From positions 2,914,001 to 2,978,000 of the forward strand of contig NZ_CP043568.1 of the NCBI RefSeq assembly GCF_014076415.1: 64,000 nucleotides of DNA, read 5' to 3'. Each line of letters begins with the position of its first letter. Position 1 is the first letter of the stretch. The notes below the pieces were generated by a model that was not told the DNA's origin, made no database searches, and worked only from the letters and a program-made list of their open reading frames with translations. Shown one piece after another: positions 40,632-61,974 of this stretch. The position numbers and the translations under genes are program-made. Source of the DNA: Comamonas testosteroni. Lineage in GTDB: Bacteria > Pseudomonadota > Gammaproteobacteria > Burkholderiales > Burkholderiaceae_C.

Positions 40632-40690
40632 TGTTTGCTCCAAAAAAATGAGCGCACACCCCACAAAGGAGTGCGCGCCCAACGGTTAGA
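40632..40690 (-). promoter_or_regulatory. Backbone leader element 1 (helicase)
   Basis: CUAACC anchor at 40684-40689. A GC hairpin pairs GCGCAC (40652-40657) with GTGCGC (40671-40676). The ribosome site at 40638-40641 sits in a 4-bp GCTC/GAGC hairpin (40637-40640 with 40650-40653). Spacing to the start codon is 6 nt. The terminator-like stem 40706-40725 lies just upstream. Confidence 0.5.
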
Positions 40691-40705
40691 TGAATGAAGG
40701 TGAGA

Positions 40706-40725
40706 AAGGCCTCTGGCGAGGCCTT
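40706..40725 (-). terminator. Hairpin after the 198-residue backbone gene
   Basis: AAGGCCTC (40706-40713) pairs with GAGGCCTT (40718-40725), with a 4-nt loop and little T run. It lies 8 bp downstream of the stop of the gene at 40733. Confidence 0.6.
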
Positions 40726-40732
40726 GATGGAG

Positions 40733-41329
40733 TTAAGGAAGGAGAACGCGGTTGCGAACGCCCTCACTTACATGCCGAATGAAGTGATCAGAAATACTTA
40801 CACGCAGCGCGCGAAGATTTCCGATGCGCGGATAGAGGCCACCCCCGAGCTCGTGGACAGCGCCCTTCTCTCGACACCAGGCAATCAAGGGTCCTTGCCA
40901 GTGATCGAGCAGCGCGATGGGAGCCAAGGTTTTCACCAGAGCCCACACCTTCGCCTCGATGCCGGCGTCGACGTTGGACACCACCCAGCCAATGCGGTTG
41001 GGCTTGTCGATCTCCTGTAAGCGTTTGTCGTAGACGAACAGATGGTTCAAAGATCCAAAGAGGTTCTGACGCGGTAGACGGCCGGTGAACTTTCCCAGGC
41101 GCTCCGCAGATCCAACCTGGACATGGTTACGCGTTCCTTCAGGGCTCACCAACGTGAAATCCGTGATTCCGTGGTCAGTCCTGCCCAGCTCCATAGCCGC
41201 GATGAACTGCATGGCAGAAGCATCGCGCCCATAGAACGAGAGAAACATGAGCTCGCCCTCATCGTTCCGCAGGCAAGCGTCGGCCCATAGATCCGCGAAA
41301 CCCTCTATACGGTGAAGCGCTCTTTGCAT
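40733..41329 (-). CDS. ICE backbone protein of unknown function (198 aa)
   Basis: This is a 198-residue soluble protein with no motif I recognise. Segments such as EGFADLWADACLRNDEGELMF, an acidic N-terminal region and a basic C-terminus (RNLRALRVSISDHFIRHV) are seen. It has no signal peptide. GGAG lies 6 nt before the ATG and is sealed in the hairpin GCTCC-ATAAAA-GGAGC. It is located in the leftward backbone run just upstream of the helicase. Confidence 0.7.
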   Translation of the reverse strand: MQRALHRIEGFADLWADACLRNDEGELMFLSFYGRDASAMQFIAAMELGRTDHGITDFTLVSPEGTRNHVQVGSAERLGKFTGRLPRQNLFGSLNHLFVYDKRLQEIDKPNRIGWVVSNVDAGIEAKVWALVKTLAPIALLDHWQGPLIAWCREKGAVHELGGGLYPRIGNLRALRVSISDHFIRHVSEGVRNRVLLP

Positions 41330-41385
41330 GAAATGCTCCTTTTATGGAGCAGCCCACAAGGGGCGTGCCCCGTGTGGGTGGATGA
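41330..41385 (-). promoter_or_regulatory. Backbone leader element 2
   Basis: The anchor reads CAUCCACCC instead of AACC. The GC hairpin is CCCACA (41353-41358) with TGTGGG (41373-41378) plus an inner GGGG/CCCC. The ribosome site is closed by GCTCC (41346-41350 read on minus) with GGAGC (41335-41339). Spacing 6 nt. Confidence 0.55.
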
Positions 41386-41389
41386 AAGA

Positions 41390-41641
41390 CTATGGATTCG
41401 GTATCCAGAGCCAGGCGGCGACGTAGGTACCGTCTTCCGCCGGCGCAACCAGCGGCAAGGGATCGATGACGCAATGGTCATCGGAGTGGATCTCCCTGGC
41501 ACGGGCGATTGCATCGGCGCACTCAGCGCGATTCAGATCCTGGTTGTTGAGAAGCCTGCCGAGCTGCGTGACAGCACCGGCAAGGTCGCCCGACTCCCAG
41601 GAGTCAACGACATCCCGCGCTGCTTCCTCCAGCTCATGCAT
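41390..41641 (-). CDS. Small ICE backbone protein of unknown function (83 aa)
   Basis: This is an 83-residue acidic protein (MHELEEAARDVVDSWESGDL...) with a C-terminal hydrophobic patch (TYVAAWLWIPNP). It overlaps the stop of the preceding gene by 8 bases, so it is translationally coupled and has no leader of its own. No family recognised. Confidence 0.6.
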   Translation of the reverse strand: MHELEEAARDVVDSWESGDLAGAVTQLGRLLNNQDLNRAECADAIARAREIHSDDHCVIDPLPLVAPAEDGTYVAAWLWIPNP

Positions 41642-41981
41642 GGGCAGCCGCCTTGCGTTTTTCCAAGGCGTCGTAGTGCATCTCGACCTGCAGTTTGAGG
41701 TCCTCGATCTGGGTCAGCGCCTGCGTATGCTGTTCGCGGACAACCTTCTCAGTCACACGCTTAGGCTTTGAAGCCACGAGCGTCTTGCTGAAATCGCCAT
41801 CGCCGCCGAAACCCATTACAAAGCGCTTGAAACCTCCCTCCACCAATGACACAGAGGCCGATGTGACGAGGGAGCTATTTAACTTACGTGTTAAGACGGT
41901 GAGCACACGCCGGTCGCCGAGATCAATCTCAGTGTTCCCGCGGTGGCCATCACGGATGTTGTTAGAGAAAGATGTGTTCAT
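41634..41981 (-). CDS. Small ICE backbone protein of unknown function (115 aa)
   Basis: This is a 115-residue protein. It has a beta-rich N-terminal half (TEIDLGDRRVLTVLTRKLNS) and a C-terminal coiled-coil-like helix (KVVREQHTQALTQIEDLKLQ). The start at 41981 is fixed by AGGAG 6 nt upstream; the longer frame from 42143 would read through the leader element. No family recognised. Confidence 0.68.
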   Translation of the reverse strand: MNTSFSNNIRDGHRGNTEIDLGDRRVLTVLTRKLNSSLVTSASVSLVEGGFKRFVMGFGGDGDFSKTLVASKPKRVTEKVVREQHTQALTQIEDLKLQVEMHYDALEKRKAAAHA

Positions 41982-42050
41982 GGATCGCTCCTGGTTGAAG
42001 TGGATAGAGCGAGCCCCTCCCCTGCGGGAAAGGCCCGCACGGGTGGTTGA
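41982..42050 (-). promoter_or_regulatory. Backbone leader element 3
   Basis: UCAACCACC anchor at 42042-42050. The hairpin pairs TGCGGG (42023-42028) with CCCGCA (42034-42039), extended by CCC/GGG. The ribosome site (41988-41991) is closed by TCGCTC (41985-41990) pairing with GAGCGA (42007-42012). Spacing 6 nt. Confidence 0.55.
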
Positions 42051-42203: not shown

Positions 42204-42512
42204 TCAGAATCCATCACTGATGCATGGCTTGCTGCTGGAAGCAAGCAGGCCAAGCGCCAGTGACAGATCGAGTGAAACCAGATTGCGAAACGTCCGGTCC
42301 GATTCCGTCATGCGCTCCCCGAGATGAAGCATGACGTTCTCAAGACTGGCTGATGCATCACATGCCTTGTTGAGCGCATCCAGGATCTGGGGGATCTTGG
42401 CGGGCAACTCTGCAAGCGCTTCGAGCATGAGCTCGTCCTGCGTCGTCAGCCCCTGCAGATGGAGGCTGAGGATGTGTTCAAGCAGCTGGACGGTATTCAT
42501 CGAGCTCGCCAT
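42204..42512 (-). CDS. Small ICE backbone protein of unknown function (102 aa)
   Basis: This is a 102-residue helical protein (MASSMNTVQLLEHILSLHLQ...) with a Leu-rich N-terminal part. The start at 42512 overlaps the stop of the preceding paralog gene (TGATG), so the two are coupled; no own leader is needed. No family recognised. Confidence 0.6.
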   Translation of the reverse strand: MASSMNTVQLLEHILSLHLQGLTTQDELMLEALAELPAKIPQILDALNKACDASASLENVMLHLGERMTESDRTFRNLVSLDLSLALGLLASSSKPCISDGF

Positions 42513-42811
42513 CAATATTCCGAGGGCAGCAAAATGGTCGTGACCGCCCAATCTGCGTCGGTTATGACCCATACCTTCTTATCGCCTACCGAGTAGGAAG
42601 ACATGAGACGGCTTCTGTCTAAAAGCGCCCGTCGATTCAATGACTTATCTGACTCGTCTAAGTCCCCCCAATCCCCGCGCACATGCCTAGAGAGCAAGTC
42701 GTACGGATTGAGGGCGAGACGACGAAGTAGATCGTCGACTCCAACTGTGGCCACACAGCGGCCCAACTGAAAAAGTGGAGCTGCCGCCGTAGTAGGTGAT
42801 TGTGTTTGCAT
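42512..42811 (-). CDS. Plasmid/ICE-related small protein, paralog A
   Basis: This is a 99-residue protein of a small uncharacterised family frequent on beta- and gamma-proteobacterial plasmids and ICEs. Family features visible here are QLGRCVATVGVDDLL, NPYDLLSRHVRGDWGDLDES, and a closing VWVITDADWAVTTILLPSEY. The next upstream gene (42904-43242) is a clear paralog. Cellular role unknown. Confidence 0.75.
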   Translation of the reverse strand: MQTQSPTTAAAPLFQLGRCVATVGVDDLLRRLALNPYDLLSRHVRGDWGDLDESDKSLNRRALLDRSRLMSSYSVGDKKVWVITDADWAVTTILLPSEY

Positions 42812-42878
42812 GATGGTCCTCGTTTAAGAAATCGGGGACCACCGGCCCTAGGGGCTAGTGCCCCCAAGGGTGGTTAGA
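42812..42878 (-). promoter_or_regulatory. Backbone leader element 4
   Basis: UCUAACCACC anchor at 42869-42878. The hairpin pairs CCCT..GGGGC with GCCCC..AGGG (42846-42870). The GAGG ribosome site (42818-42821) is closed by GGTCC (42836-42840 on minus) with GGACC (42815-42819). Spacing 6 nt. Confidence 0.55.
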
Positions 42879-42903: not shown

Positions 42904-43242
42904 CTACGTTGCGCGTGCTTCAGCGCTCCATTCGGATGGAAGCATCAGCTTCGTCACCGACCAGTCAGCACTTGTCAGTACCCATACATACTCGCTGTTG
43001 ACGAGAAATGCAGATAGTCGCTGGCCACGCGCCGCTTCCAAGTCGCGCGCAAGCATGACCAACTTCGTGTTGGCCAGCTCGCCTGGATCGCCACAGATGT
43101 GCCGCTGCAGGAGCTCGTGGGGATTGATGGTCCCCTGGCAAATTAGGTTGTCTAGGCCCAGCGTTGCTACGCATCGGCCCGGTCGAAACAGCGGTGTGTC
43201 ATAACGCTGCGCTGGTTGTGCTGGCTTCACAGCATTTCTCAA
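42904..43242 (-). CDS. Plasmid/ICE-related small protein, paralog B
   Basis: This is a 112-residue paralog of the protein at 42512-42811, sharing FRPGRCVATLGLDNLI, NPHELLQRHICGDPGEL and VWVLTSADWSVTKLMLPSEW. I choose the TTG at 43242 as start because GGAG lies exactly 6 nt before it, as in sister genes; an in-frame ATG at 43248 would leave no spacing between GGAG and start. Role unknown. Confidence 0.7.
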   Translation of the reverse strand: MRNAVKPAQPAQRYDTPLFRPGRCVATLGLDNLICQGTINPHELLQRHICGDPGELANTKLVMLARDLEAARGQRLSAFLVNSEYVWVLTSADWSVTKLMLPSEWSAEARAT

Positions 43243-43340
43243 GGTCATCTCCAATCAAGTGAATGAACGAGGACGACCTTCCCTGGGAAAGTGTCCCCAG
43301 GGGGTTGCGGTTCGCTGGCCGAGGCCAGCAGTGGTTAAAG
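43243..43340 (-). promoter_or_regulatory. Backbone leader element 5
   Basis: UUUAACCAC anchor at 43331-43339. Two GC hairpins: GCTGGCC (43314-43320) with GGCCAGC (43323-43329), and CCCTGGG (43281-43287) with CCCAGGG (43296-43302). The ribosome site is enclosed by AAGGTC (43275-43280 on minus) with GACCTT (43241-43246). Spacing 6 nt to the TTG. Confidence 0.5.
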
Positions 43341-43345: not shown

Positions 43346-44473
43346 CTATGCGACGTTGACGATCCGACCCAGCCGGTGGTCGGGTGTGAACTCGATGGCA
43401 TTGATGACGGGGACGAATCGGTCCAGCATCACCGTGGTTTGCGATGCTTGACCTTTCTCGTCAAAGTCAACGGACACCTTGCGCTCCTTGCGCTTGTAGG
43501 TATCCCCCTTTATCAGGAGCGTTCTGCCGCCGGCGCCGTGGATCATTCCGACCACCTGGCCAGCCGCAAGGGCAAGCGCAAGGTGCCATGGCGTCAGATC
43601 GCGCAACGGCGGTCGACAAGCGCCGCCGACCTGACTGAACTGCGATGAAAGCCCGCTCCAAAGCAGACTCGATTCATACTTGTCCAGCTCGTCGCCGAGC
43701 TGCTCGGCATCGATCTGCACAGCGTGGAAGTCGAACTCCTGATCGACCTGCAGCGCAGGAATGACATATGGCTCCAACTCCCAGGAGTCTGGAATGACAG
43801 GGGCGCCCTCTTCCGAGGCCTGGGCCTCAGTCAGTGGCTGCAGGGCCGCCTTGGTGGCATGGGTTGCCCGGCAGCGCTTGCCAATCACAATGCATTGTCG
43901 AAACTGCTGCACTGGCGCCATGAAGATCCGCAGATCCTCAAAGTTGCGCACCAGGTAGCTGCGTATTTCGTCGTCGAGCGCGTAGTGCGGAATGATGTAG
44001 ACAAGCACTCCGCCATAGGCGAGATATGGCAAGGTTTTCCGAAGAAAGGTTCGCTCCAGGCGCTCGGCCTTATCAGCCTCCGCCAACAGCGAGCGCTGGG
44101 CTGATTGATCGGCTACGCCGAAGCCATAAGGCGGATTTAGAAACAGCAGGCCCATGCTTCTCGGCTTGAGCACGACATCGTGCACGTCCGAATGAATCAC
44201 ACGGTCGAGGATTCCCTTTGCATGACGCGCTCTGTCACGGTCGAGCTCGATGCCAAAGGCCTCGGCACCGCCGATTCGCCCTCGATCGACGGTCAGTAGC
44301 TGCCGTAAATCGGCGAGCGCGCTGCCCTCGCCGCAGCAAGGGTCAAACATGCGTATACCCCCCTTCTCGGGCATCTGCAGCAGGTTTGAGATCCGGCGTA
44401 TGGATTCCTCGTCCGTGGGGTAGTAGCCGTTTTTGACATAGTTGTGCGCCAGGCGCGAGAACATTAAGGCCAT
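43346..44473 (-). CDS. SAM-dependent DNA adenine-type methyltransferase (DUF6094-like)
   Basis: This is a 375-residue protein. The SAM-binding motif DPCCGEG is at 44-50 and the catalytic NPPY at 113-116 (FLNPPYG), with an acidic partner in FGIELDRDRA. A large C-terminal part has no motif I know. NPPY enzymes modify adenine N6 or similar amino groups. No restriction partner is nearby, so it is an orphan, perhaps for host restriction evasion or ICE control. Its leader shows two mutually exclusive hairpins. Confidence 0.88.
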   Translation of the reverse strand: MALMFSRLAHNYVKNGYYPTDEESIRRISNLLQMPEKGGIRMFDPCCGEGSALADLRQLLTVDRGRIGGAEAFGIELDRDRARHAKGILDRVIHSDVHDVVLKPRSMGLLFLNPPYGFGVADQSAQRSLLAEADKAERLERTFLRKTLPYLAYGGVLVYIIPHYALDDEIRSYLVRNFEDLRIFMAPVQQFRQCIVIGKRCRATHATKAALQPLTEAQASEEGAPVIPDSWELEPYVIPALQVDQEFDFHAVQIDAEQLGDELDKYESSLLWSGLSSQFSQVGGACRPPLRDLTPWHLALALAAGQVVGMIHGAGGRTLLIKGDTYKRKERKVSVDFDEKGQASQTTVMLDRFVPVINAIEFTPDHRLGRIVNVA

Positions 44474-44530
44474 GGGCAGCTCCAGAAATAGAAAAGCCAG
44501 TCTCCTTATGGAGAGCTGGCTTGGTTAAAG
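44474..44530 (-). promoter_or_regulatory. Backbone leader element 6 (methyltransferase), two exclusive folds
   Basis: UUUAACC anchor at 44522-44528. Fold 1 pairs AAGCCAG (44516-44522 on minus) with CTGGCTT (44494-44500) and is followed by TTTTC. Fold 2 pairs CAGCTC (44513-44518 on minus) with GAGCTG (44477-44482), closing the ribosome site at 44480-44483. The folds share 44516-44518. Spacing 6 nt. Confidence 0.55.
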
Positions 44531-44550
44531 AGGTGGTACGTCAGTACCGC

Positions 44551-45111
44551 TTAGAACGGGATCTCGTCAGGATCAAGACCCACGCCGGTAAGTTCTTGAA
44601 CCTTTCCGTAGATGTCGAGGCGCGGCAATGCCCGCTTCAAGGCTTCTCGGTAGAGAGGGTTAGAGCGTGCATGCACCGCGATGACGGACGCTGCTGACTG
44701 CTGAGCAGGCAAGTCTTGAATGCGGCGAAAGGCCACGGTATCGGCAAGCGCCATTACGTCTTCAACGTCTGGCGACTGCAGCTCCTCAATCTCAGCACGC
44801 ATCTCTAGGCGACGCATGATGTGAAAGAGCGCCTCATGATCGAACAGCCTCTGCACGGTCGACAGCATGCTGCCGCCTTCATGCATCCATATGCCATTGA
44901 CATACCGGATCTGCTCCACGGTGCGGTCCATGAGACGACACTGGAAGGCTGTCAAGCCCAGCTCAGTTGCCTTAGCAATAGCGTCCTTCGCGATATAGAG
45001 CCGGTATTTCACCTCCATATGCGTGTCGTAGACCTCGTAGCGATGCGCGGGCTCATTCTGAGTCCACAGGAGAAGCTCTTTGAACGCAGCTTCATTTGCA
45101 CTAATAGACAT
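44551..45111 (-). CDS. ICE backbone protein of unknown function (186 aa)
   Basis: This is a 186-residue soluble, mostly helical protein with no recognised motif. Start at 45111, with GGAGGA upstream at a spacing of 6. The N-terminal part contains ELLLWTQNEPAHRYEVYDTH; the C-terminus is acidic (LTGVGLDPDEIPF). It is located in the leftward backbone run before the methyltransferase. Confidence 0.68.
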   Translation of the reverse strand: MSISANEAAFKELLLWTQNEPAHRYEVYDTHMEVKYRLYIAKDAIAKATELGLTAFQCRLMDRTVEQIRYVNGIWMHEGGSMLSTVQRLFDHEALFHIMRRLEMRAEIEELQSPDVEDVMALADTVAFRRIQDLPAQQSAASVIAVHARSNPLYREALKRALPRLDIYGKVQELTGVGLDPDEIPF

Positions 45112-45218
45112 AGAGTCCTCCAAACAAGGCTCAGGGAACTCCAGCCCATAGGGACCAAAGCCCCATAGGGAAAGAAAATGCCAGCCCTGATTTCTCAGGG
45201 ACTGGCACGGGTTTAAAG
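45112..45218 (-). promoter_or_regulatory. Backbone leader element 7
   Basis: UUUAAACCC anchor at 45208-45216, overlapping the stop codon of the upstream gene. A strong hairpin, TGCCAGtCCCTG (45196-45207 on minus) with CAGGGcTGGCA (45179-45189), is followed by TTTTCTTT and looks like a terminator. A second hairpin, GAGTtCC with GGAGGACTC, encloses the ribosome site. Spacing 6 nt. Confidence 0.5.
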
Positions 45219-45446
45219 GTGGTCCTTCTGGGACCAGTGACCCTTCGCCCAGGCCTTTTCAGCCTTGGCTTGGGTATTCCAAGTCTCCAGAGATTCACGA
45301 GTGAACGGGCCACGCTCGGTACAAGTACCGAGGTAGAAGCCGCCTCCACTACGCAGAACCTGCATCGGCAGAACCTCGCCACATTGAGCAGCGAGAACGC
45401 CGTAAGTCACACCAGTAGTTGCTTGCGATTGAACGATTTGCGTCAT
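45213..45446 (-). CDS. Small ICE backbone protein of unknown function (77 aa)
   Basis: This is a 77-residue protein (MTQIVQSQATTGVTYGVLAA...) with a Gly-rich centre (RSGGGFYLGTCTERGPF) and a Lys/Trp-rich end (KAEKAWAKGHWSQKDHL). AGGAG is 7 nt before the ATG. Small size and a full leader element support it. Family unknown. Confidence 0.68.
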   Translation of the reverse strand: MTQIVQSQATTGVTYGVLAAQCGEVLPMQVLRSGGGFYLGTCTERGPFTRESLETWNTQAKAEKAWAKGHWSQKDHL

Positions 45447-45516
45447 GTCTTTTCTCCTGTTGATGGGGGAAAAGGACGAGCGCGCCCGAATGGGACACGG
45501 CCCATCCGGGGTTGAG
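45447..45516 (-). promoter_or_regulatory. Backbone leader element 8
   Basis: CUCAACCCC anchor at 45508-45516. The hairpin CCCGgATGGG/CCCATtCGGG (45485-45494 with 45501-45510) is a 10-bp stem with one wobble. The ribosome site lies in the stem formed by GTCcTTTTC (on minus) and GAAAAGAC (45447-45477). Spacing 7 nt. Confidence 0.55.
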
Positions 45517-45660
45517 AGAGGTTGAAAACGTGAGACACTTTCCAGATGACTGAAAAGCGTCCCCAGTTGAGAGTGATAACAGGGACTCCTCGTCTTGAGG
45601 AGCCTCTGGACCTAGTGCATCTTTTCGAGGAAATGGATGCGCGCGATGCGCTACCTATTC

Positions 45661-45945
45661 TTAGAAAGAGGATGCGTCAGCAGACGGCGGCGGCAAATTC
45701 CGCTCTTTCAATAGTTGAACCAAGCTCGACGGCATGCCGTCAAGCAGCTCCGGCTTTTGATAGCAAGAACTGATCAGCGTCACGATCGAACAAACCTGCC
45801 CTGGTGCAACCTGCTCGCGCAGTCGCATCAGTGCTTCGTAGTCCTGCTCGGTACACATCGCCACGAACTTGCGATAGGCGTCATGCATTTGCATGCGCTG
45901 GTCCTCAGACCAAGCAATGAGCTTAAGGCTGGAAGGTGTGCCCAT
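45661..45945 (-). CDS. Small ICE backbone protein of unknown function (94 aa)
   Basis: This is a 94-residue protein, mainly helical (MHDAYRKFVAMCTEQDYEALMRLREQ), with no recognised motif. GGGAGGAG lies 5 nt before the ATG. It has the shared leader element. It is followed by a 214-bp gap to the next gene at 45446. Confidence 0.65.
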   Translation of the reverse strand: MGTPSSLKLIAWSEDQRMQMHDAYRKFVAMCTEQDYEALMRLREQVAPGQVCSIVTLISSCYQKPELLDGMPSSLVQLLKERNLPPPSADASSF

Positions 45946-46013
45946 GGAGACTCCTCCCGATAAGGAGCGGGCACGCCGGCCCTTGCGGACAGTTGTGCCC
46001 GCGAGGGTTATAG
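45946..46013 (-). promoter_or_regulatory. Backbone leader element 9
   Basis: UAUAACCCUC anchor at 46003-46012. The hairpin pairs CCCT-c-GCGG with CCGC-a-AGGG (45980-46007). The ribosome site is closed by CTCC (45964-45967 on minus) with GGAG (45954-45957). Spacing 5 nt from the nearer GGAG. Confidence 0.5.
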
Positions 46014-46395
46014 AAAAATGATGCCCATGGCATTGCTGCCTGCACTTTTCAAGGGCTCAAAGTGCGCGAAACCATATTGATGGTCAGATGGTTTCCCAGA
46101 AGATCCGCAATTGCTGCAGACACTCTGGGAACCCATCGGGCTCCCGGCATTGCCAGATTACAGTACCCAGGCCGCTAGGCTGGCCGGCTGTCACAACGGG
46201 CTCAGACAGCCAAGGAACGGCGCGGTCACGAGGCCGGCTTGGCTTTCACCGGACACGCACTATCGCAAAGCCGCTGCGCATCAGGTCGCAGCCACCCTAA
46301 TTCCACCTTCCCGCTGCCTGGCTACCAGGCAGTAGGCTGATCCATATACGCGCGTTCACGCATATGGATCAGCCCGCTGATGCGGGCGATGGGCT
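46014..46395. other. Gene-poor stretch with three stem-loops
   Basis: No convincing gene in about 380 bp. It holds GGCTGTC/GACAGCC near 46183-46210, CTGCCTGG-CTA-CCAGGCAG at 46314-46332, and a 13-bp perfect stem at 46335-46374. A plus-strand frame of about 75 codons (46111-46335) looks protein-like in places but has no ribosome site. It may be a gene remnant or a non-coding RNA. Confidence 0.45.
46335..46374. repeat. 13-bp perfect stem-loop after the DUF3275-like gene
   Basis: GGCTGATCCATAT (46335-46347) pairs with ATATGGATCAGCC (46362-46374) around a 14-nt GC-rich loop, without a T run. It lies 22 bp beyond the stop of the gene at 46396 and could protect the message end or be an attachment-type dyad. 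Confidence 0.65.
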
Positions 46396-47070
46396 TTATT
46401 TTGGATGCCAAGTTTGATCTTGGAACACAAATTTATAGGAGCCCAGTTGGCCGATGGCCTTGGTCTGCTCTCGCAACATCGAGCGATCGACAGTGGGATC
46501 GAGCTTCACTGGTTGAAGAGCGCGGATCTGATCCCAGTATTCCCGGAGCACTTCAGGAAGATCGGGCGTATCGACCTGACCTACATCTTCGACTGAGGAC
46601 GCTTGTGCAATTGCTTGGGCTGGTTGCCCAGGGTTTCGCTTTATTCTCTCAATGCGCTCTCGCATCTGTTCGCCCAACCGCCTGGACCCCTCGGTCTTCG
46701 ACTCGGTACTCGGCGCGGGCAGCGGAGCTGACCACACAGGCGTTTGAGACGCCAGGGATGGCGATTCAAGCAGTGGGTCGGGCTCGGCCAATTCCGTTTC
46801 GACAGGAGCGTCGGAGGCGCTATCGAGCTGCATGTCATGCAGCGTTGCTCTCATCTCCGTGACGGCTTTTCCAAACGCAATGTACTGGTGCAGAAAGATT
46901 CGGCTGATCCAAACAGTACCGTGATACTCGCCTTCTTCAAACTGATCCAGGAGTGAATCCTTGACCTTGAGTTCGCAGCACTGGTGGAATAGCTCCCCGA
47001 CGCAGAAATCGCCGTAGCGGCCCCCTCGAATTTGTTTGACACGCAACGTCACGTTTTCGAGCTTTATCAA
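46396..47070 (-). CDS. DUF3275-like ICE protein
   Basis: This is a 224-residue protein. Its N-terminal about 90 residues (VKQIRGGRYGDFCVGELF, VKDSLLDQFEEGEYHGTVWI, YIAFGKAVTEMRATLHDM) match the ICE-borne DUF3275 family of unknown function. The C-terminal half is Pro/Ser/Glu-rich and probably disordered, ending in a conserved-looking block (YKFVFQDQTWHPK). The start is TTG at 47070, with GGAG 7 nt upstream sealed by a TGCTCC/GGAGCA hairpin. It supports an SPI-7/PAPI-1-type ICE. Confidence 0.78.
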   Translation of the reverse strand: MIKLENVTLRVKQIRGGRYGDFCVGELFHQCCELKVKDSLLDQFEEGEYHGTVWISRIFLHQYIAFGKAVTEMRATLHDMQLDSASDAPVETELAEPDPLLESPSLASQTPVWSAPLPAPSTESKTEGSRRLGEQMRERIERIKRNPGQPAQAIAQASSVEDVGQVDTPDLPEVLREYWDQIRALQPVKLDPTVDRSMLREQTKAIGQLGSYKFVFQDQTWHPK

Positions 47071-47135
47071 GCTTTTGCTCCATCAGATTGCGGAGCACCA
47101 GTCCAACGCGGGGCCAGGCCCGCGTGGGTGAAAGA
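47071..47135 (-). promoter_or_regulatory. Backbone leader element 10 (DUF3275-like)
   Basis: UUUCACCC anchor at 47126-47134. The GC hairpin pairs CGCGGG (47107-47112) with CCCGCG (47119-47124). The ribosome site is closed by a perfect 6-bp TGCTCC (47092-47097 on minus) with GGAGCA (47076-47081). Spacing 7 nt to a TTG start. Confidence 0.6.
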
Positions 47136-48193: not shown

Positions 48194-48281
48194 GATGACT
48201 CCAAATTTCCAATGTTTGGACGGAGCACAGCCACACCTGACCGCAAGGTCTGGATGGGGCGATGATCCCCATCCGGGTTGC
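48194..48281 (-). promoter_or_regulatory. Backbone leader element 11 (DUF3577-like)
   Basis: CGCAACCC anchor at 48275-48282. The hairpin pairs GGATGGGG (48252-48259) with CCCCATCC (48267-48274). The ribosome site is partly closed by CCAAA (48215-48219 on minus) with TTTGG (48201-48205). Spacing 5 nt. Another hairpin, CCGATCC/GGATCGG at 48297-48315, lies upstream after a second AACC. Confidence 0.5.
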
Positions 48282-48333
48282 GAGGTAATGCTTTGACCGA
48301 TCCTTGGGGGATCGGTTGACGACTCTCAAAAGC

Positions 48334-49600: not shown

Positions 49601-49662
49601 CGTTTGCTTCCTATTGTTGTCGTTGCCCCCAGGCGCTCCCTCTACGCGCCATGTGTAACCGC

Positions 49663-52112: not shown

Positions 52113-52236
52113 GACGCATGGGTCCTAGAAAAGCTTGGATGTGGCATCGGGGCGAGACGTGGGCGTTCCCCCTGGCTTGAGGCCTCGGACGTTGGCATGA
52201 AGGCCTACGTCCGGGTGGTGCAAAGGCTGCGTCGAT

Positions 52237-52743: not shown

Positions 52744-52749
52744 GATGGA

Positions 52750-53235: not shown

Positions 53236-53248
53236 GATGAAGCTCCCT

Positions 53249-53952: not shown

Positions 53953-55563
53953 TTACCGCAGCCGATTTATTCGCCGCAGTTCCACTGCATTGGCTTGCGA
54001 CAAAGGCGCTTCGCCGCGCTCGAGACGGAATAGGCGCATTGAGTTGCTCACACTGTTTACTTGACCTCGCAGCGATTGCGCGGCTGCGGCCAGTTCCTCC
54101 ACCATCGCAGCGTTTTGTTGGGTGATCGAGTCCATGTGCGCCACAGCAGCGTTGACCTGTGAGATACCGGTTTGCTGCTCTATGGCTGCGGTACTAATTT
54201 CACCCAGCACAGCACTTACGCGTTGCACCGCTGACAATGCTTCGGCCATGCGCTCGCGCGCTTCGCCTGTAGCGGTGGCGCCCGATGCCACGCGCTCGGC
54301 CGAGTCGCCGATGAGCTGCTTAATATCGCGCGCTGCCTGGGCGGTGCGTGCAGATAGCGTGCGCACCTCCGACGCCACCACAGCAAAGCCCCGCCCAGCC
54401 CCTCCCGCACGCGCAGCTTCTACGGCCGCGTTCAGCGCAAGAATATTCGTCTGGAAGGCCACGCCCTCGATGAGGTGCACGATGTCTTCAATGTGTCGTG
54501 ACGATTCAGCGATGCCCAGCATGGTCTGGCCCACGGCCTGCACGGCATCGTTGCTGCGTTGTGTGATGCTCGAAGCTTCTTCTGCAAAACAGGCGCCACG
54601 GCTGGCGGCTAGGGCGCTGTTATGCACTGTGCCATTAATCTGCTCCATGGATGCGGCAGTCTGCTCCAGGCTGCTGGCTTGAGTTTCGGTGCGGGACGAC
54701 AGGTTGTGGTTGCCGCTGGCGATTTCCTGCACGGCAATCTCCAGGTGCCCTACCTCCTGGCGCACGTCGCTCACCACAGTGCGCAAGTTCACACTCAGTT
54801 GAAACAGTGCGCGCTGAAGATTTCCGACACTGCCGCTGGCACCTGTACGCATTGCGTGCGACAGGTCTCCAGATGCCAGCTGATTGGCATCGTGCACAAG
54901 TTCTTGCAGCGGCGCGATAGCCAGCGAGTGAGTCAGAAAAGACGACACAGCCACGGCCAACAAGGCCGCACTGCCCGTGACTAGCCAGGGGACATTCAGC
55001 CAGGTGAGCAGTAGCGGAAGCATTACAGCTAGCGTCAGTACCAGCAGCAGGCGCACAAACGTAGAAGGAGCCAGTAGCCGCATCAAGCGTCCACTCAGGT
55101 TTTGGCGCAGTACGGTGCCATGGCGTAGCGTGTGGACCACACGTCCGACCTCTGCCTCAGCACGCATGGTGGCATACAGCCTTTCTGCGATCAATATCTG
55201 TTCGCGCGTGGGTAGCGTGCGCACCGACAGGAAGCCCGTGACCTGCTCGCCGTCACGCAATGGCGTGATGTTGGCTTGTACCCAGTAAAAATCTCCGTTC
55301 TTGCGACGGTTTTTCACGATGCCGGTCCAAGGAAGGCCTGCCGATATGGTTTGCCACAAATCGCGGAAAGCCTCGGCGGGCATTTCAGGGTGGCGGATCA
55401 GGTTGTGGGGCTGGCCCAGCAACTCCTCGTGTGCGAAGCCGCTCACGTGAACGAATGCGGGGTTGCAATAAGTGATACGGCCCTTGGTATCCGTGACCGA
55501 GACCAGAGTGTCTCGCTCCGGAAACGTGAACTCATTGGTAGTGACTGGCAAATTGATCCGCAT
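53953..55563 (-). CDS. aer-like: Aer-like chemoreceptor with PAS domain
   Basis: This is a 536-residue methyl-accepting protein. The N-terminal PAS domain (about 10-125) has [10 protein letters not shown] and [12 protein letters not shown]. One or two membrane helices follow (about 168-210), then HAMP, then a signalling domain with the conserved hairpin [20 protein letters not shown]. Aer-type receptors read redox through PAS-bound FAD and steer swimming. It lies 34 bp after the globin-GGDEF-EAL gene, in the same direction. The coupling of chemotaxis to c-di-GMP is inferred from the pair. Confidence 0.88.
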
Positions 55564-55597
55564 AGAATATTCTTTTTTATGGTGTTTTTGAGGAGGG

Positions 55598-58099
55598 TCA
55601 GAGGGACAGCCAGTCGCGTGTCAACTCGGCTGCGGGAACAGCTTTCGAGAAAAAGTAGCCTTGTACTTCGTCGCAGTGCAGGTCGCGAAGTTTGTCGAGT
55701 TGGCTTTGTGTTTCCACGCCTTCGGCCACCGTCCGCAGTTGCAGCGCATGGGCCAGGCCAATGACTGCTGTCACGATGGCGAGACTGCCAGGCTCGCTGA
55801 ACATGCCGCGTACGAAAGACATGTCGATCTTGAGCCGAGAAACGGGAAAGCTCTGTAGCCGCGCCAGCGAAGAGTAGCCAGTGCCAAAGTCGTCGATAGA
55901 TAGCGTGAAGCCCTGTTTCACTAACTGGGAAGCAACGCGCTTAGCCTTGGCAGGGTCATGCATCAGCGCCGACTCGGTGATCTCCAATTCGATGCATCGT
56001 GGGCTCACGCCGTGCGCGCGCATGATCGCCAAGGCACGCTCGGAGAAGGAGTCACTCATCATCTGCGCAGCCGATACGTTGACGGCAATCACAGGCGGCT
56101 GCGCTATGCCGGCAGAACTCCAGGCCCGCCACTGACGAGCTGCTGCGTCCAAGCTCCAGTCGCCGAGCGCGATGATGAGGCCGCGCTCCTCAGCAACGGA
56201 GATAAACTCGGCGGGGCTCACCCAGCCCCACTCTTCGTCGTGCCAACGTGCGAGCGCTTCTACGCCGTATAACGCATACGAATCTAAAGCTATCTTGGGC
56301 TGGAAGTGCAATTCCAAGCGTGATTGCGCGAGAGCCTCCTCCAGTTTTACACCAAGTGCAATGCGCCGCTGGAGCCGGTGGCCCATTTGTGCATCGTAGA
56401 GCTGGCAATTGCCGCCGCCTTGCGTTTTGGCTTGGTACATTGCGATATCGGCGCGCTGGAGCAACTCGTCTACGCTGTGACCGTGCGTGGGGTAAAGAGC
56501 TACTCCGACGCTTGCCCCCACTTCGAAGCAAAGATCGTCCACCCTCATGGGACTTGCCAATGTTGAGCAGACCTCATGGGCCAAGGCCATAGTATCGTTG
56601 CCTTCGGCGAGTGTGCGCACGAACATAAATTCATCGCCACCCAGGCGAGCCACCACACCCTCTCCCCCGAGCGTGCGTTCGCACCGCCTTGCCACTTCAG
56701 CAAGCAAGTCGTCTCCCACTAAATGGCCCTGCGAGTCGTTGATCTCCTTGAAGCGGTCGAGATCAACGAACAGCACCGTGGCCTGCTGACCTCGTTGGCC
56801 TGCGATGTCGAGCAGGCGTTGAGCCAAATCTATGCCGTGAAAGCGATTAGGTAACCCTGTGAGCGCATCGAAGAACGCCAGCTTCTCCATGCGCCGTTCG
56901 GTCCGTTTGCGCTCCGTGATGTCGAGTAGCGTGCCGTAGCCCCGGACCGGCTTGCCAGTCACGTCATGCTCGATCGTGCCAAGCGCATCCACCCAGCGGA
57001 CGCTGGTGCCGTCCTGGATGCGCATTTCGAACGCGTAATGGCCAGTGGCAAGCCCTTTTTTCCATTGTGCATCTGCGTATGCGCGGTCTTCTGCATGCAC
57101 GCAGCCAAGTAAATCAGCATATTTGAAAGGCTGGCCTACTGGCCAACCAAGGATACGTGCCGCTTGAGGCGTGAGGGAAGGCTTGCCGTCAAAGTATGAG
57201 AGCCAGGTACCGATGTTGGCCACCTCCTGGGCATTGAGCAAGTCACGATTGAGTTGCTCCTGTTTGCGCAGATCTTCAACGGTGATCAGCAACCGTGGCT
57301 GAGCGTGGCCGTCGGGCTGTTGCAGAGAGTGGACAGTGATGGAAACCGGGATCGCCAATGCTTGAGCGTGGAAATGCAGTTGCGACCTTCCCCTGGCATG
57401 TTGATGCTGTAGCGCTTGCTTCACCAATGCAGGTAAGCTGCCTACATCCATAAAGGCCGGTAGCGGGTCTCCTTTCGCTAGCGCCATTGGTGTTTGGCCT
57501 GCGAGTTGTGCGAAGGCCTGGTTGGCAAACACCACATTCAGCTCATCCGTGACCACAAGCGTGCCGTGCGGTAGGTGCGCGAAAGCTGCGCCATAGTCTC
57601 GAAGTTCGGCTATCAGCGTATCGCGATGTGTGATGTAGCTATCGATGGCCAGCCCGATATCCAGCAGGACCACCTTGATCAATGCCTGGATTGCGTCGTT
57701 ACGCTGCTCTGGCGTCAGTTCGGGCAGTCTAGTAATTCGCGGAAGGAGCTCAGTGAGGTAGTGACTGTAGGCACCCAGATACCAGCCGGGCGACAGTCCA
57801 ATACGAGCATGTGCCAAACCTACATGCTGACGCTCATCCCCATAGGCCTCGTCATAGGTACCTGCCGTGAGCCTGAGAAAGTAACGCATTTGTAGCGCCT
57901 TGAGCCGGTCCAGTGCCTCGTCGTCCGGCAGCAGTGCACGCATCTCAGGAAAGGAAAGCAGGTGACGGTAGAAGCCTTCCACGAAGCCATACGCCTGGTC
58001 GCCAAGAGCGTCGTCCAGGTTGCGCATAGCCTGCTCGTCCTCAACGGTGAGGCAGAGGAAATCCTTGCGACGTTGGAAGTTTTGGGAGATTTCTGTCAA
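55598..58099 (-). CDS. Globin-coupled diguanylate cyclase/phosphodiesterase (globin-PAS-PAS-GGDEF-EAL)
   Basis: This is an 833-residue protein. An N-terminal globin sensor (about 1-160) has proximal His in [12 protein letters not shown]. Two PAS-like modules (about 165-280 and 285-395) follow, then GGDEF ([10 protein letters not shown]) and EAL ([10 protein letters not shown], with [10 protein letters not shown]) domains. Both catalytic motifs are intact, so it may make and break c-di-GMP in response to O2. The start is TTG at 58099; a stop codon is three codons upstream, and an ATG at 58027 would cut the globin. An FNR-type box lies 80 bp upstream. Confidence 0.88.
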
Positions 58100-58700: not shown

Positions 58701-59135
58701 TTACATGCCAGGACTCAGAGAATCGTTAGTGACTTGCTTAAGCAATTGCTCGTGACGCAGGGTCACAAAGTCTGGGCATGTCAATGTAGCGATGTTGGCT
58801 TCAGCCTCGACGCCATCCCAACTATCGTTACACCAGGCACTGATGTCGAAGTCCGACGCAAGATCTGGGGAGTAGATGCCATTGGTTTCGTTGTAGAAGA
58901 AAACGACCTCTGGTTTTCCGTTGAACTCCGCTTTCAGGATCACATAGGGGCTATGTATCTCCTGAATGCCGGTCATCAAAGGCGCATCAGCGAGTAATGA
59001 TGACGCGGCTGCTATCCACCCCTTAAAGGTGCGGAGATCGTGGCCAGCGATGGCAATGGCGACCTGTTCAGCAGTCAGTGCGTAGCTCTGACGATCCGCA
59101 GTTGTGCAAAGCGGCTGATTGTTAGTTGCGGTCAT
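58701..59135 (-). CDS. ICE backbone protein of unknown function (144 aa)
   Basis: This is a 144-residue protein with no recognised motif. It contains VAIAIAGHDLRTFKGWIAAA and SPYVILKAEFNGKPEVVFFYN, and has one or two cysteines (PLCTTADR, TLTCPDF). I chose the start at 59135, with GAGAG 6 nt upstream in the leader. It is separated from the sensory cargo by a strong terminator. Confidence 0.68.
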   Translation of the reverse strand: MTATNNQPLCTTADRQSYALTAEQVAIAIAGHDLRTFKGWIAAASSLLADAPLMTGIQEIHSPYVILKAEFNGKPEVVFFYNETNGIYSPDLASDFDISAWCNDSWDGVEAEANIATLTCPDFVTLRHEQLLKQVTNDSLSPGM

Positions 59136-59197
59136 TTCCAACTCTCTAAATTGGAAAGGCGCGGCCCGACTGGGCGACAACGCCCGTCCGGGTTAAA
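59136..59197 (-). promoter_or_regulatory. Backbone leader element 12
   Basis: UUUAACCC anchor at 59189-59196. The hairpin GGGCG (59172-59176)/CGCCC (59181-59185) is flanked by CCCGG/TCGGG. A perfect 7-bp TTTCCAA (59151-59157 on minus) with TTGGAAA (59135-59141) closes the start region. Spacing 6 nt from GAGAG. Confidence 0.5.
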
Positions 59198-59220
59198 AAA
59201 TCGCTGGCCCTTGGCCAGCG
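59195..59220 (-). terminator. Terminator of the 328-residue backbone gene
   Basis: CGCTGGCC (59202-59209) pairs with GGCCAGCG (59213-59220); on the minus strand it is followed by ATTTTTT, which runs into leader element 12. It is 23 bp after the stop at 59243. Confidence 0.85.
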
Positions 59221-59242: not shown

Positions 59243-60229
59243 TTAGATGGCGATAACGGACGCAAAGCACACCTTCAGATACCCATCGGAATCCTGGTAT
59301 CCAGGCCAGTCTTTACTGCAACTGCTCATATCACCTGGACGATAGTTGCAGTGGCCGCAAGATGCGCATAAGTCATCGTCAGCGATGCTTTTGACGCCAA
59401 ATGACTGGACCTTGAGCAATGCACCGCTCGCCAAGGCATATGCCTCGTGAATAGGGATGCAGTTCTCGCCCTCCTCTGCTGTCACTTCACACGGCCCGAA
59501 CACCTTTGCCGCGGAAAAGCCAGCCCAACTATCTCCAGCCCAAAAGCCCGTTTTATCTTGTACGAATTCGTGATCCGAGAAGACAACAAACAACTTGGAT
59601 TCGAGCTGCAGAATTGGCGGCACAAAGCCCAGAATGCGGTTCAGAACCGATCCTATGCCTTCGCCAGGATGCTTTTGGAAAGCGCCCTTCAAGAGCCGCG
59701 CATGCATCGTGTCAAGACGCTTGAGCACATCCTGTTCATCGAGTACCGGCCATTCACCTTCTTGTGGCAAGACATCACAGAGCAGAGATGGCACATAGGC
59801 TTGATAGTCCTTGGATTGCAGCAAAGCATATGTGCCAAGATCTTCCTCGCTGTCAGTGAACCAAGCCCACACAGGGTTATCGGTTGGCAGCACGGACGGC
59901 ATCTGTTGGCGAAAGCCCAGCTGTAGCAGTCGTCTGTCGGATTCCGTTTGCGTGTAAGGCTCGTGCTCGATGAAATCATTACTCCCATCGAACATTGCTT
60001 CGATAGCCAGGCGATCCATCATTTGGCGAGGGACTACTAAGCCATGCTCTGCAGTCACGGTGAGCAACCAGCCAGAGTCCTTCGACCCGAGCTCCACCAG
60101 TGAGGTGTAGTAAATGTCGCCTTCGGAATGAATATTGGCAAAGAATGAGCCTGTTGGGCGGTCGTAGCCGCATTCCAGAACCATTTCAATACCGTTCACG
60201 TTCGTTTGATTAATTAAGTGCTTGGACAT
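59243..60229 (-). CDS. ICE backbone protein of unknown function (328 aa)
   Basis: This is a 328-residue protein with no family I know. It has a Cys-rich C-terminal segment (DDLCASCGHCNYRPGDMSSC) that may bind zinc, and aromatic-rich blocks (FWAGDSWAGFSAAKVFG). The start at 60229 has AAAGGA 5 nt upstream, inside a CTTTC/GAAAG hairpin. It is one of the longest backbone genes without a name here. Confidence 0.7.
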   Translation of the reverse strand: MSKHLINQTNVNGIEMVLECGYDRPTGSFFANIHSEGDIYYTSLVELGSKDSGWLLTVTAEHGLVVPRQMMDRLAIEAMFDGSNDFIEHEPYTQTESDRRLLQLGFRQQMPSVLPTDNPVWAWFTDSEEDLGTYALLQSKDYQAYVPSLLCDVLPQEGEWPVLDEQDVLKRLDTMHARLLKGAFQKHPGEGIGSVLNRILGFVPPILQLESKLFVVFSDHEFVQDKTGFWAGDSWAGFSAAKVFGPCEVTAEEGENCIPIHEAYALASGALLKVQSFGVKSIADDDLCASCGHCNYRPGDMSSCSKDWPGYQDSDGYLKVCFASVIAI

Positions 60230-60300
60230 GGGATTCCTTTCGTTGAAAGCAGAAAGGGCACCGTCCCCCCCAGGGGCATGACGGCGCCCCAAGGGTAAAA
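60230..60300 (-). promoter_or_regulatory. Backbone leader element 13
   Basis: UUUUACCC anchor at 60293-60300. A 10-bp hairpin pairs GGGCACCGTC (60256-60265) with GACGGCGCCC (60280-60289); an alternative CCCTTGGGGC pairing competes. The AAAGGA ribosome site (60235-60240) is closed by CTTTC/GAAAG (60237-60249). Spacing 5 nt. Confidence 0.55.
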
Positions 60301-60340
60301 AGAGAGTTAGAAGAAGATTACCCAGTGAATACGGGACAAG

Positions 60341-60586
60341 TTACAGAACCCTGTCTTTCGCTGTGAGCGCTTTCTGGAGCATCGTGCGAAGATGATCCTG
60401 TTCCAGTACAACACGAGCCTTATATTTCTCTTTAGCAGATGGTTCCAAGGCATCGTTTGAAGCTAATGTCCAAATTGATGCAATCACCATTACCTGGTCC
60501 ATCAACAATTCAATGCTCGGGTTTTTCTCTGTATGCACCATGGATTTGTAATTCCTTGGACGTTCAAAGGTGTTTTCGAGGCTCAT
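60341..60586 (-). CDS. Small ICE backbone protein of unknown function (81 aa)
   Basis: This is an 81-residue protein (MSLENTFERPRNYKSMVHTE...), helical in its second half (SAKEKYKARVVLEQDHLRTM). I prefer the second of two close ATGs (60586) because GGAG lies exactly 6 nt before it; the first ATG (60592) abuts GGAG. No family recognised. Confidence 0.62.
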   Translation of the reverse strand: MSLENTFERPRNYKSMVHTEKNPSIELLMDQVMVIASIWTLASNDALEPSAKEKYKARVVLEQDHLRTMLQKALTAKDRVL

Positions 60587-60661
60587 ATTCATCTCCAGTA
60601 GATAAGGAAGATGGACACTTGCCCCAGGGCATCTAGTGCCCATCAGGGATTTATAGGTTGA
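60587..60661 (-). promoter_or_regulatory. Backbone leader element 14
   Basis: UCAACC anchor at 60655-60660, overlapping the last codons of the upstream gene. The hairpin pairs GGGC (60627-60630) with GCCC (60638-60641) and outer CCC/GGG. The ribosome site (60593-60596) is closed by CATCTtCC pairing with GGAGATG (60590-60613). Spacing 6 nt. Confidence 0.5.
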
Positions 60662-61394
60662 CACCCAACTTGCTCATTGCCGCAGACGCCGAAGCCTGCA
60701 CATTTGCTTTTCGGTATGCCAGGTACGCATCAATGTCTTTGGTACCCACGTACACGGACTTTTGATTGCTCATCAACTCAGAATGGTCCCTGCGACAATC
60801 GGAGGCGTAAACAAATGAATAGGCTACTGCCCGCATCCGTTCCTTCACGCTTTGTTTCTCATGAAAGGTCAGATATAGCGACAGGATAAATTCATTGGCT
60901 GGTACGTTGAGATACCGCTTATTCAAATGAAACCAATCACCAACGCAACTGCGCGTTTTGAAGTTGTCAGCCTCAAGCAATAACTCAAGCTCTAGCTGAA
61001 ACTCCACTTCATCGCCATGCCAGCGTGCTTGCGCAAACGCATCGCATTCTTCATTCTGATCGGCAAGAACCGTCTTATCGTAGAACTCCTTATAGCTCTT
61101 AGCCCAATTTTCTAGCGGAACCAGCGACTCGGCGAGATCGCGCATCATCGTTGAGGCATCCTTCAATTGCTTCAATTGAGTTGGATTGAGGTTCTCGAAA
61201 TTACTTTGAGCTTTCACCAATGAGGTGGCGGTTCGCTTCGCATGGGCAATCTGATGTTTGATCTTCGCAACGCCTCGGAGCTGAATTTCAAAGTACCAAC
61301 GTTCAATGAGCTCCATATCCAATGACGCGCCACGCCTTGAAGCCTTCAATGGATGCAATTCGAGATAGCGTTCAAGGACTGATTTCTTATTCAT
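60651..61394 (-). CDS. ICE backbone protein of unknown function (247 aa)
   Basis: This is a 247-residue, mostly helical protein (QLRGVAKIKHQIAHAKRTAT, TQLKQLKDASTMMRDLAESL). It has no recognised motif and no signal peptide. GGAGG is 5 nt before the ATG. The stop overlaps leader element 14 of the next gene. A structural or regulatory role cannot be assigned. Confidence 0.7.
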   Translation of the reverse strand: MNKKSVLERYLELHPLKASRRGASLDMELIERWYFEIQLRGVAKIKHQIAHAKRTATSLVKAQSNFENLNPTQLKQLKDASTMMRDLAESLVPLENWAKSYKEFYDKTVLADQNEECDAFAQARWHGDEVEFQLELELLLEADNFKTRSCVGDWFHLNKRYLNVPANEFILSLYLTFHEKQSVKERMRAVAYSFVYASDCRRDHSELMSNQKSVYVGTKDIDAYLAYRKANVQASASAAMSKLGVNL

Positions 61395-61463
61395 ATGGCC
61401 TCCAAATATTCGAACAAAGAAAAACCCACTACCCGACGAATTTCGGGTAATGGGTTGGTTAGA
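61395..61463 (-). promoter_or_regulatory. Backbone leader element 15
   Basis: CUAACCAACCC anchor at 61452-61462. A strong stem pairs AACCCA..ACCCG with CGGGTA..TGGGTT (61423-61456) and is followed on the minus strand by TTTCTTT, terminator-like. No clear pairing to the ribosome site. Spacing 5 nt. Confidence 0.45.
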
Positions 61464-61471
61464 GCCTCTGC

Positions 61472-61909
61472 TTAGTTATCTGTGCCAGTTGCCTTGCGAG
61501 ACAACGGGAGCATGATGACATTGGCAGAAGGAGCCGGTGGCTTAGGCGATTTATGGGACTTTTGCAGCTTGTACTCATTGAGAGCCACACGGGTCCAACG
61601 AGCAAAGCAAACGCTAAGCGACCAAAGGGCACGAAGCAACTCCAAACACTTTCGCTTGATTCGCGCAGTAGCCTGACCCACGTCATGAGCCTTTGCATAT
61701 CGAATCTGCGAGCGCTTGACCGTCTCTTCCGCCATCAGATAGGCACCTAGGAACTGAAGTTTCAGATCCGGGTACATATCCAACGTGTTGAGAAATATGC
61801 GTGCTACGACAGGGTCGTTGACGCGAGAGATCATCTTCACCAGCAGCTGGCGATCCACGTCAAAAGGCGAGGATGCCGGCTTCTTGGCAGAACGTTGAGA
61901 TTGATGCAT
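61472..61909 (-). CDS. ICE backbone protein of unknown function (145 aa)
   Basis: This is a 145-residue basic, helical protein (VDRQLLVKMISRVNDPVVAR, YAKAHDVGQATARIKRKCLE) with a Lys/Pro-rich tail. It is the first leftward gene next to the divergent H-NS gene and has a strongly closed leader. A DNA-binding role is possible but not shown. Confidence 0.66.
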   Translation of the reverse strand: MHQSQRSAKKPASSPFDVDRQLLVKMISRVNDPVVARIFLNTLDMYPDLKLQFLGAYLMAEETVKRSQIRYAKAHDVGQATARIKRKCLELLRALWSLSVCFARWTRVALNEYKLQKSHKSPKPPAPSANVIMLPLSRKATGTDN

Positions 61910-61974
61910 GTGTTGCTCCTAGATGTTGGGCAACACGGTCCCCGACGGGATTGTGTTATCCCGTGGGGTTGAAG
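61910..61974 (-). promoter_or_regulatory. Backbone leader element 16
   Basis: UUCAACCCC anchor at 61964-61973. The hairpin pairs CCCC..CGGGAT with ATCCCG..GGGG (61940-61968). A perfect 7-bp GTGTTGC (61930-61936 on minus) with GCAACAC (61910-61916) closes the ribosome site at 61916-61919. Spacing 6 nt. This is the clearest example. Confidence 0.62.

Follow-up and report, generated by a model that had tools for sequence, protein, structure and literature searches.

Leaders with two mutually exclusive conserved folds precede genes of a Comamonas testosteroni mobile element and are probably translational switches

The window analysed here is a 64,000-nucleotide stretch of the Comamonas testosteroni genome (assembly GCF_014076415.1, contig NZ_CP043568.1, positions 2,914,001 to 2,978,000; coordinates below count from its first letter) that carries leftward genes of a mobile element, many of them preceded by a short structured leader. 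A sequence-only reading had assigned such leaders to 16 gene starts, each with a first hairpin (H1) and, in about fourteen of them, a second (H2) that closes over the Shine-Dalgarno (SD) site. When the upstream regions were inspected by eye the pattern was visible at all 16 starts as claimed, and the arms quoted for two of them (GCTCC/GGAGC at 41335-41350 and GTGTTGC/GCAACAC at 61910-61936) are present as given. Both hairpins hold, but this two-hairpin picture overlooked an alternative helix, ALT, in which the 5' arm and loop of H1 pair with the anti-SD (H2 5') arm, and which is mutually exclusive with both hairpins. The leaders probably form one family of bistable translational switches.

Results

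Each of the 16 claimed leaders has a GC-rich hairpin and a predicted fold more stable than its dinucleotide-shuffled versions are on average (z -1.5 to -6.5); in eight of them the native sequence beat all 200 shuffles. The (U)AACC-like anchor reported at their upstream end is present in a loose form, variants such as ATCCACCC, TTTCCC, TTTCACCC, TTTACCC and AAATCCC also being seen; the GGAG-type site is found in general, but 59135 and 60229 lack GGAG and 42811 has GAGG. A sequence-only MAFFT alignment of 18 leaders was not structure-consistent, and a seed covariance model (R1) was therefore built from seven loop-trimmed leaders, four from the window and three from a Comamonas aquatica plasmid locus (L006). 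Three window leaders that were not part of the seed, 41329, 41981 and 45111, were recovered by R1 with 26.5 bits and an E-value near 1e-4. A second covariance model (R2), built from 114 matches in 41 sources (two on the non-gene strand, 14 with short H2 arms), recognised 13 of the 16 claimed leaders at E<=0.28 over the 191 kb searched: 40631, 41329, 41981, 42811, 43242, 45111, 45446, 45945, 47070, 59135, 60229, 60586 and 61909. Membership as first proposed fails for 44473, 48193 and 61394, which are absent at E<=10. Seven of the 13 were in R2 training; 40631, 45945, 47070, 59135, 60229 and 60586 were outside it. Across the whole 5.9-Mb genome, all nine R2 matches at E<=0.05 and 13 of the 16 at E<=10 fall inside the window. 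No R2 match at E<=10 was found on either strand over the rightward DsbC and type IV pilus genes (24184-36826), or over the copper genes and the block of arsenic, methyl-accepting chemotaxis protein and GGDEF-EAL genes (48542-58099); flanks L002-L004 had none and L005 two weak ones.

Every leader lies on the minus strand. The best R2 match in the genome is 42809-42877 (gene 42512-42811; 50.9 bits), with H1 at about 42846-42870, H2 at about 42812-42843 and a C.A mismatch at the SD. High scores were also obtained for 61907-61975 (gene 61472-61909; 46.7 bits; fold z -6.5), in which the H1 loop AACAC is complementary to the H2 5' arm GTGTT; 41979-42050 (gene 41634-41981; 45.8 bits); 45444-45517 (gene 45213-45446; 39.0 bits), whose minimum free energy (MFE) fold is ALT plus a shortened H2; 41327-41383 (gene 40733-41329; 38.7 bits), outside the R1 seed, with H1 CCCACA/TGTGGG and H2 GCTCC/GGAGC; 43240-43310 (gene 42904-43242, TTG start; 37.3 bits); and 45109-45177 (gene 44551-45111; 35.4 bits). 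The members outside R2 training are 45943-46014 (gene 45661-45945; 32.2 bits), 60227-60302 (gene 59243-60229; 31.8 bits), 40629-40693 (SNF2/DEAD helicase gene 38238-40631; 23.8 bits, E 0.014), which is a member by score and folds as one long hairpin, 47068-47135 (DUF3275 gene by Pfam, 46396-47070, TTG start; 23.6 bits), 60584-60655 (gene 60341-60586; 19.7 bits, E 0.087) and the weak 59133-59199 (gene 58701-59135; 17.2 bits, E 0.28). Among the claimed leaders not recognised by R2, 44471-44542 (DUF6094 gene 43346-44473; R1 7.8 bits, E 9) and 61392-61463 (gene 60651-61394) each have one terminator-like hairpin, and 48191-48285 (DUF3577 gene 47459-48193) is a three-hairpin variant whose Comamonas counterpart (L006 20021-20099) scores 11.8 bits (E 3.4). 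In three relatives (L015, L016 and L019) a leader ends on the DUF6094 gene start.

Several further features accompany these leaders. The H2 5' arm of 45943-46014, GTGCCC, could pair as well with the first letters of the gene it precedes (ATGGGCAC), as in the Comamonas counterpart, and the closed form may therefore take in the start codon. Immediately before leaders 47070, 45111 and 59135, and in L006 near 21106, stands a terminator-like hairpin followed by a U run. A promoter would hardly fit in between, and this hints that led genes are linked by read-through, processing or antitermination. The led gene cluster is interrupted by the leaderless arsenic, chemoreceptor and globin-GGDEF-EAL block (48542-58099), and a DDE transposase gene (62533-63555) lies just past the last leader.

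The sequence-only reading had proposed a covariance model and a test for covariation; with the model built, both hairpins covary strongly. In alignment A6 (114 rows), 93.8% of model pairs are standard, 15 of 17 pairs changed on both sides, and covariation is 0.522 versus 0.142 shuffled and at most 0.060 slid. Alignment A8 (98 matches, 12 of them from Paraburkholderia xenovorans LB400) gave 94.0% standard pairs, 15 of 17 double-changed and covariation of 0.494 versus 0.149 shuffled. Both alignments were fitted to the structure; two other measures depend less on that. In a swap test restricted to the H2 region of the 16 unselected leaders, SD arms paired with their own upstream arms at -11.8 kcal/mol versus -9.4 when reshuffled (4/20000). 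On the coding strand, G.U pairs outnumber A.C mismatches by 46 to 8 and 55 to 5 in two sets, which argues that the leaders act as RNA rather than DNA. A cruder first swap of whole upstream segments was not significant (1669/20000), we think because an SD arm pairs with any C-rich H1 stretch, and aligning the orthologs of a single leader (A10) was uninformative, the sequences being too conserved. Swap tests were also strong in 50 leaders below 62% identity (H1 z -11.9, H2 z -17.1; 0/5000 each) and in 49 leaders outside R2 training (H1 z -13.6, H2 z -14.1). The latter come from nine genomes (the first 58 of 98 rows minus nine LB400 rows); they have no 20-mer in common with A6, and 8 of the 49 share one with the 50-leader set.

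ALT was first noticed in the MFE folds of 45945 (GCGGGCAC:GTGCCCGC), 60229 (GGGCGCCGTC:GACGGTGCCC) and 60586 (GATGGGCACT:AGTGTCCATC). Since R1 and R2 contain no ALT pairs, the searches did not select for it. Swap tests nevertheless gave ALT z -15.7 in 100 leaders of A6, z -11.8 in the 50-leader set and z -14.1 in the 49 leaders outside training; when only loop letters were counted, z was -5.9 and -7.3 in the last two sets (0/5000 for each 50-leader test). Most control arm pairs stayed near zero, with three in the 50-leader set at z -1.4 to +0.7, two in the 49-leader set at -0.4 and -1.2, and -1.0 and +0.7 in A6; one control in a 150-row set reached +2.2. ALT thus appears, from these sequence comparisons, to be conserved about as strongly as H1 and H2, and about as well supported outside the training leaders. 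It also explains why C often stands opposite the A of GGAG in H2, since in ALT this C finds a G of H1 as its partner: opposite the SD A there is C in 83 of 150 rows and U in 52 of 150, and the same position in ALT forms 88 C-G and 41 U.G pairs among 146.

Folding with the SD forced open points the same way. ALT was the best fold in 35/49 and 38/49 leaders, versus 284/967 and 274/960 chimeras, which keep H1 and H2 but mix them (29% have ALT as best fold), and the predicted opening cost was 9.1 and 8.8 kcal/mol in leaders versus 10.6 and 10.8 in chimeras. In many cases the best SD-open structure is a single long hairpin in which ALT is combined with an inner CCC:GGG stem.

Significant matches in this genome are confined to the element, and similar leaders occur on other elements, often in arrays. 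We kept 80 loci with DUF6094 homologues as relatives, mostly from beta- and gammaproteobacteria. In 1.53 Mb from these loci R1 gave 396 matches at E<=5, nearly all on the gene strand among the 300 listed, and R2 gave 343 at E<=0.05 over 62 sources. Leader arrays on one strand (E<=2) reach 16 copies in L106, 13 in L102, 11 in L105 and nine each in L098 and L111; arrays also occur at G+C near 0.4, and there are a few antisense matches to the same palindromes. R2 hit 12 of 41 relatives in a genome sample at E<=0.05 and, at E<=0.001, 12 of 398 genomes sampled phylum-wide, the C. testosteroni genome being counted in both; two of the latter 12 belong to another class. In LB400, nine of ten R2 matches at E<=1 lie within 3573583-3605193 of chromosome 1, which we take to be a copy of the model element ICEclc, and the tenth lies elsewhere (E 0.39). 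Matches ended on the start codon of an open frame of at least 45 codons in 79 of 98 cases, a count partly built in by the ATG that closes the model; at least three of these 79 matches run antisense.

The leader marks DNA-metabolism and establishment-type genes (RadC, ArdC, SSB, RecT, DUF3275). In the window, the led genes encode the SNF2/DEAD helicase, the DUF3275 protein and many unknowns, and the DUF6094 and DUF3577 genes follow the unrecognised leaders 44473 and 48193. Among 56 led proteins, chosen from the 79 start-codon matches with short ones excluded and LB400 included, Pfam identified RadC (5), the ArdC N-domain (4), MPTase-PolyVal (4), DUF3577, DUF3275 and RecT (3 each), YqaJ (2), and SSB, Toprim_3 and CbtA (1 each). 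These gene types resemble the establishment genes of conjugative plasmids (PMC8708921). DUF6094, DUF3275, the helicase and the 40733-41329 protein each occur in 10-12 of 18 element groups compared and RadC in 8, the elements being partial.

No Rfam family covers the leaders: Rfam 15 gave no match to them at or above gathering threshold, the only sub-threshold signals being at chance level (CRISPR-DR35, E 0.27, lying mostly on the terminator-like hairpin that precedes leader 45111; and MEG8_1, E 2.8, on the strand opposite a leader of L106). The sequence-only reading had wondered about the radC motif. Although the leaders are not radC RNA (RF01754), in other elements they frequently follow it directly. 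The leader can occur without radC RNA, since RF01754 has no match in the window at gathering threshold and none between 38000 and 64000 at E<=5. Elsewhere, RF01754 matches end 6-16 nt before a leader in all six copies first met, and 26 of 36 further radC loci (selected from longer lists; one of them, L112, repeats a site already among the six) have a same-strand R2 match 3-126 nt downstream. Of the other ten, three (L118, L125, L146) appear by eye to have variant leaders and seven have another context. Nine radC RNAs (L113, L131, L135-L137, L141-L143, L145) stand at a constant 122-126 nt from the leader, with further similar sequence between, and seven (L114, L117, L132, L133, L138, L140, L144) are followed by another conserved region instead of a leader, six of these loci having a terminator-like GTCTCTTT..AAAGAGAC hairpin in the stretch examined. 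Rfam classes radC RNA, an RNA of Proteobacteria, as cis-regulatory; it differs from the leader in its 149 model positions, its structure and the end of its match before the leader.

To our knowledge, radC RNA is catalogued but unexplained. We recognised no description of the leader in the Creative Commons-licensed literature searched, supplements excepted, and a prior description is possible. In the parts consulted of one survey (PMC2864571, Weinberg 2010), radC appears in the motif table and STAXI RNA is discussed, and the leader is not mentioned; the terms radC, conjugat- and integrative are absent from the main text of two surveys of new bacterial RNAs (PMC8632094, PMC11109978).

Discussion

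The element-wide family of translational-control RNAs that the sequence-only reading proposed is supported by hairpin covariation, by significant matches confined to the element, by similar leaders elsewhere and by the want of an Rfam match. Beyond the family and its pairs, our computations reveal a third conserved helix that cannot coexist with either hairpin. Riboswitch-type control of translation calls for two conserved folds that exclude each other, only one of them concealing the SD; covariation and prediction give such a pair here, and we infer that exchange between them would turn translation on and off.

The proposed switch would use four segments: the upper H1 5' arm and loop (a), which follow a common (U)CAACCC-like stretch, the H1 3' arm ending in GGG, the anti-SD arm (a*) and the SD arm running to the start codon. 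In the OFF state, H1 and H2 would form, with the CCC of CAACCC closing H1 on GGG, a paired with the H1 3' arm, and a* paired with the SD arm, hiding the SD. In the ON state, a would pair with a* and a CCC of the second segment with GGG, giving one long hairpin that leaves CAACCC and the SD single-stranded; the H1 loop may offer a toehold to the anti-SD arm as it emerges. A single factor, probably a host protein or RNA recognising the shared CAACCC/GGG part, could open H1 simultaneously in every leader, and the element's establishment and DNA-metabolism genes would then be translated in concert. CAACCC and GGG recur more than any other part of the copies and would be a natural recognition site. 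No conserved unpaired core other than the (U)CAACCC flank was seen in the leader rows inspected, and the four copies of TCAACCC that lie on the plus strand of the window, away from the leaders, did not point to a small RNA. The predicted opening cost averages about 9 kcal/mol; for the window it was scored in 12 members, with values from 2 to 14 kcal/mol. We judge that the binding of ribosomes could cover part of it.

Several observations count against this switch. One A6 control, the H1 3' arm with the H2 3' arm, gave z -2.9. With the SD open, ALT was the best fold in only six of the 13 window members (41981, 45111, 45446, 45945, 60229 and 60586; 12 were scored, without 59135), and in 45446 it coexists with a short H2. 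A strict fixed-column test of ALT on alignment A7 was split: paired cells and covariation beat all 500 shuffles, but double-change pairs (3 versus 3.7) and pair types (15 versus 15.9) did not exceed them, so that fixed-register support for ALT is weaker than that from the duplex tests. The predicted barrier from H1 to ALT is about 18 kcal/mol, and from ALT to OFF about 12 kcal/mol (both rough upper estimates from the heuristic findpath); because of the former, a factor is likely needed to open H1. The conservation of CAACCC was partly favoured by the seed model, and no protein is common to all 18 element groups compared over partial sequences.

Alternatively, the leaders could be static hairpins in which H1 and H2 set a low, fixed translation rate and ALT has no function. 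H1 plus H2 is indeed the predicted ground state in most leaders, at least five ALT pairs appearing in the unconstrained MFE fold of only 3/49 and 1/49 leaders, and several window leaders keep H1 when the SD is opened. We nevertheless find this reading distinctly unlikely: in two sets ALT rivals H1 in strength of conservation while controls stay near zero, and it reaches loop letters that H1 does not use and explains the C.A mismatch. Another reading is a switch that times itself during transcription and needs no factor, with ALT forming before the SD arm is made, nascent RNA being translated and older RNA closing. In transcripts cut before the SD arm, ALT is best in 27/50 and 28/49 leaders, whereas six sets of chimeras gave 9-16 of 46-50; the part of a* that emerges first can pair with the H1 loop; the predicted ALT-to-OFF barrier is about 12 kcal/mol; and MS2 and hok-type leaders offer precedents (PMC6733600). 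However, H1 would form first, and crossing to ALT would then be too slow at RNA lifetimes, which leaves self-timing unlikely but still worth considering.

Other explanations place the structures outside translational switching. Promoters active in single-stranded DNA as the element enters a recipient (Frpo/ssi), of which Frpo has been described (PMC11541004), would suit led genes of leading-region type such as RadC, ArdC, SSB and RecT, but the RNA-like excess of G.U over A.C and the locking of the structure onto SD and start codon make DNA structures very unlikely. Terminators or processing sites of upstream genes, near start codons by chance, would account for the hairpins with U runs before 47070, 45111 and 59135 and for the leader hairpins at 44473 and 61394, and core transcripts of ICEclc are thought to be cleaved (PMC2892462); yet H2 includes the SD arm in the family, and in the 12 members with an upstream open frame nearby the gap to it is anything between 64 and 450 nt, so that such an origin is hardly to be expected. 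The hidden SD and GGA motifs could also recall an RNA thermometer or CsrA-controlled leader, and csrA is present on some integrative and conjugative elements (PMC7366521). Predicted SD pairing is flat from 10 to 60 C (0.15-0.18 unpaired; 47 leaders), and a CsrA search that found the Escherichia coli, Bacillus subtilis and Thermotoga maritima proteins found no match in the window's genome (0/1). Thermal opening and CsrA control are thus unlikely on these predictions, and as an account of the family we consider them scarcely credible.

The bistable switch we favour has relatives of several kinds. By description, its nearest functional analogue would be EGeRS1 of plasmid pLS20 (PMC8708921), likewise present in several structured copies before establishment genes, including ardC, of one conjugative element. 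The likeness, that of a multi-copy structured element upstream of establishment-type genes, is in use only: EGeRS1 spans hundreds of nt on a Gram-positive plasmid and has an unknown mechanism, whereas the leader is about 70 nt long and includes the SD. Translational riboswitch platforms also have two exclusive folds that hide or free the SD, but in the leader no conserved unpaired aptamer was seen, and its copies, with private arms, precede many genes of one element. The metastable SD hairpins of aapA3 and hok toxin mRNAs similarly combine competing SD/anti-SD pairings in one leader, in single toxin mRNAs rather than a gene set of one element (PMC6733600). STAXI RNA (RF01728), also found near ssb, topoisomerase and antirestriction genes (PMC2864571), is a tandem pseudoknot motif with no window match; in L111, two STAXI and one EFASI Rfam matches (6910-7067, 7539-7686 and 9178-9332) lie in the leader-array stretch, one STAXI copy 41 nt upstream of a leader.

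A more tentative, though by no means implausible, extension is that the leaders constitute an RNA regulon of conjugative elements, in which each establishment or DNA-metabolism gene would have its own bistable SD switch with private arms, a shared CAACCC/GGG lock would answer to one factor, and radC RNA would act as an upstream sensor or booster module. Private arms would keep the copies from cross-pairing or recombining.

If the leaders are switches, a widespread group of mobile elements would control many genes by a translational device absent from Rfam 15 and from the literature searched. The radC RNA would gain a partner and its role would become testable, and a translational layer would be added to the establishment genes of Gram-negative elements. 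The leaders would also represent a natural set of toehold-like switches with set points graded across their predicted opening costs.

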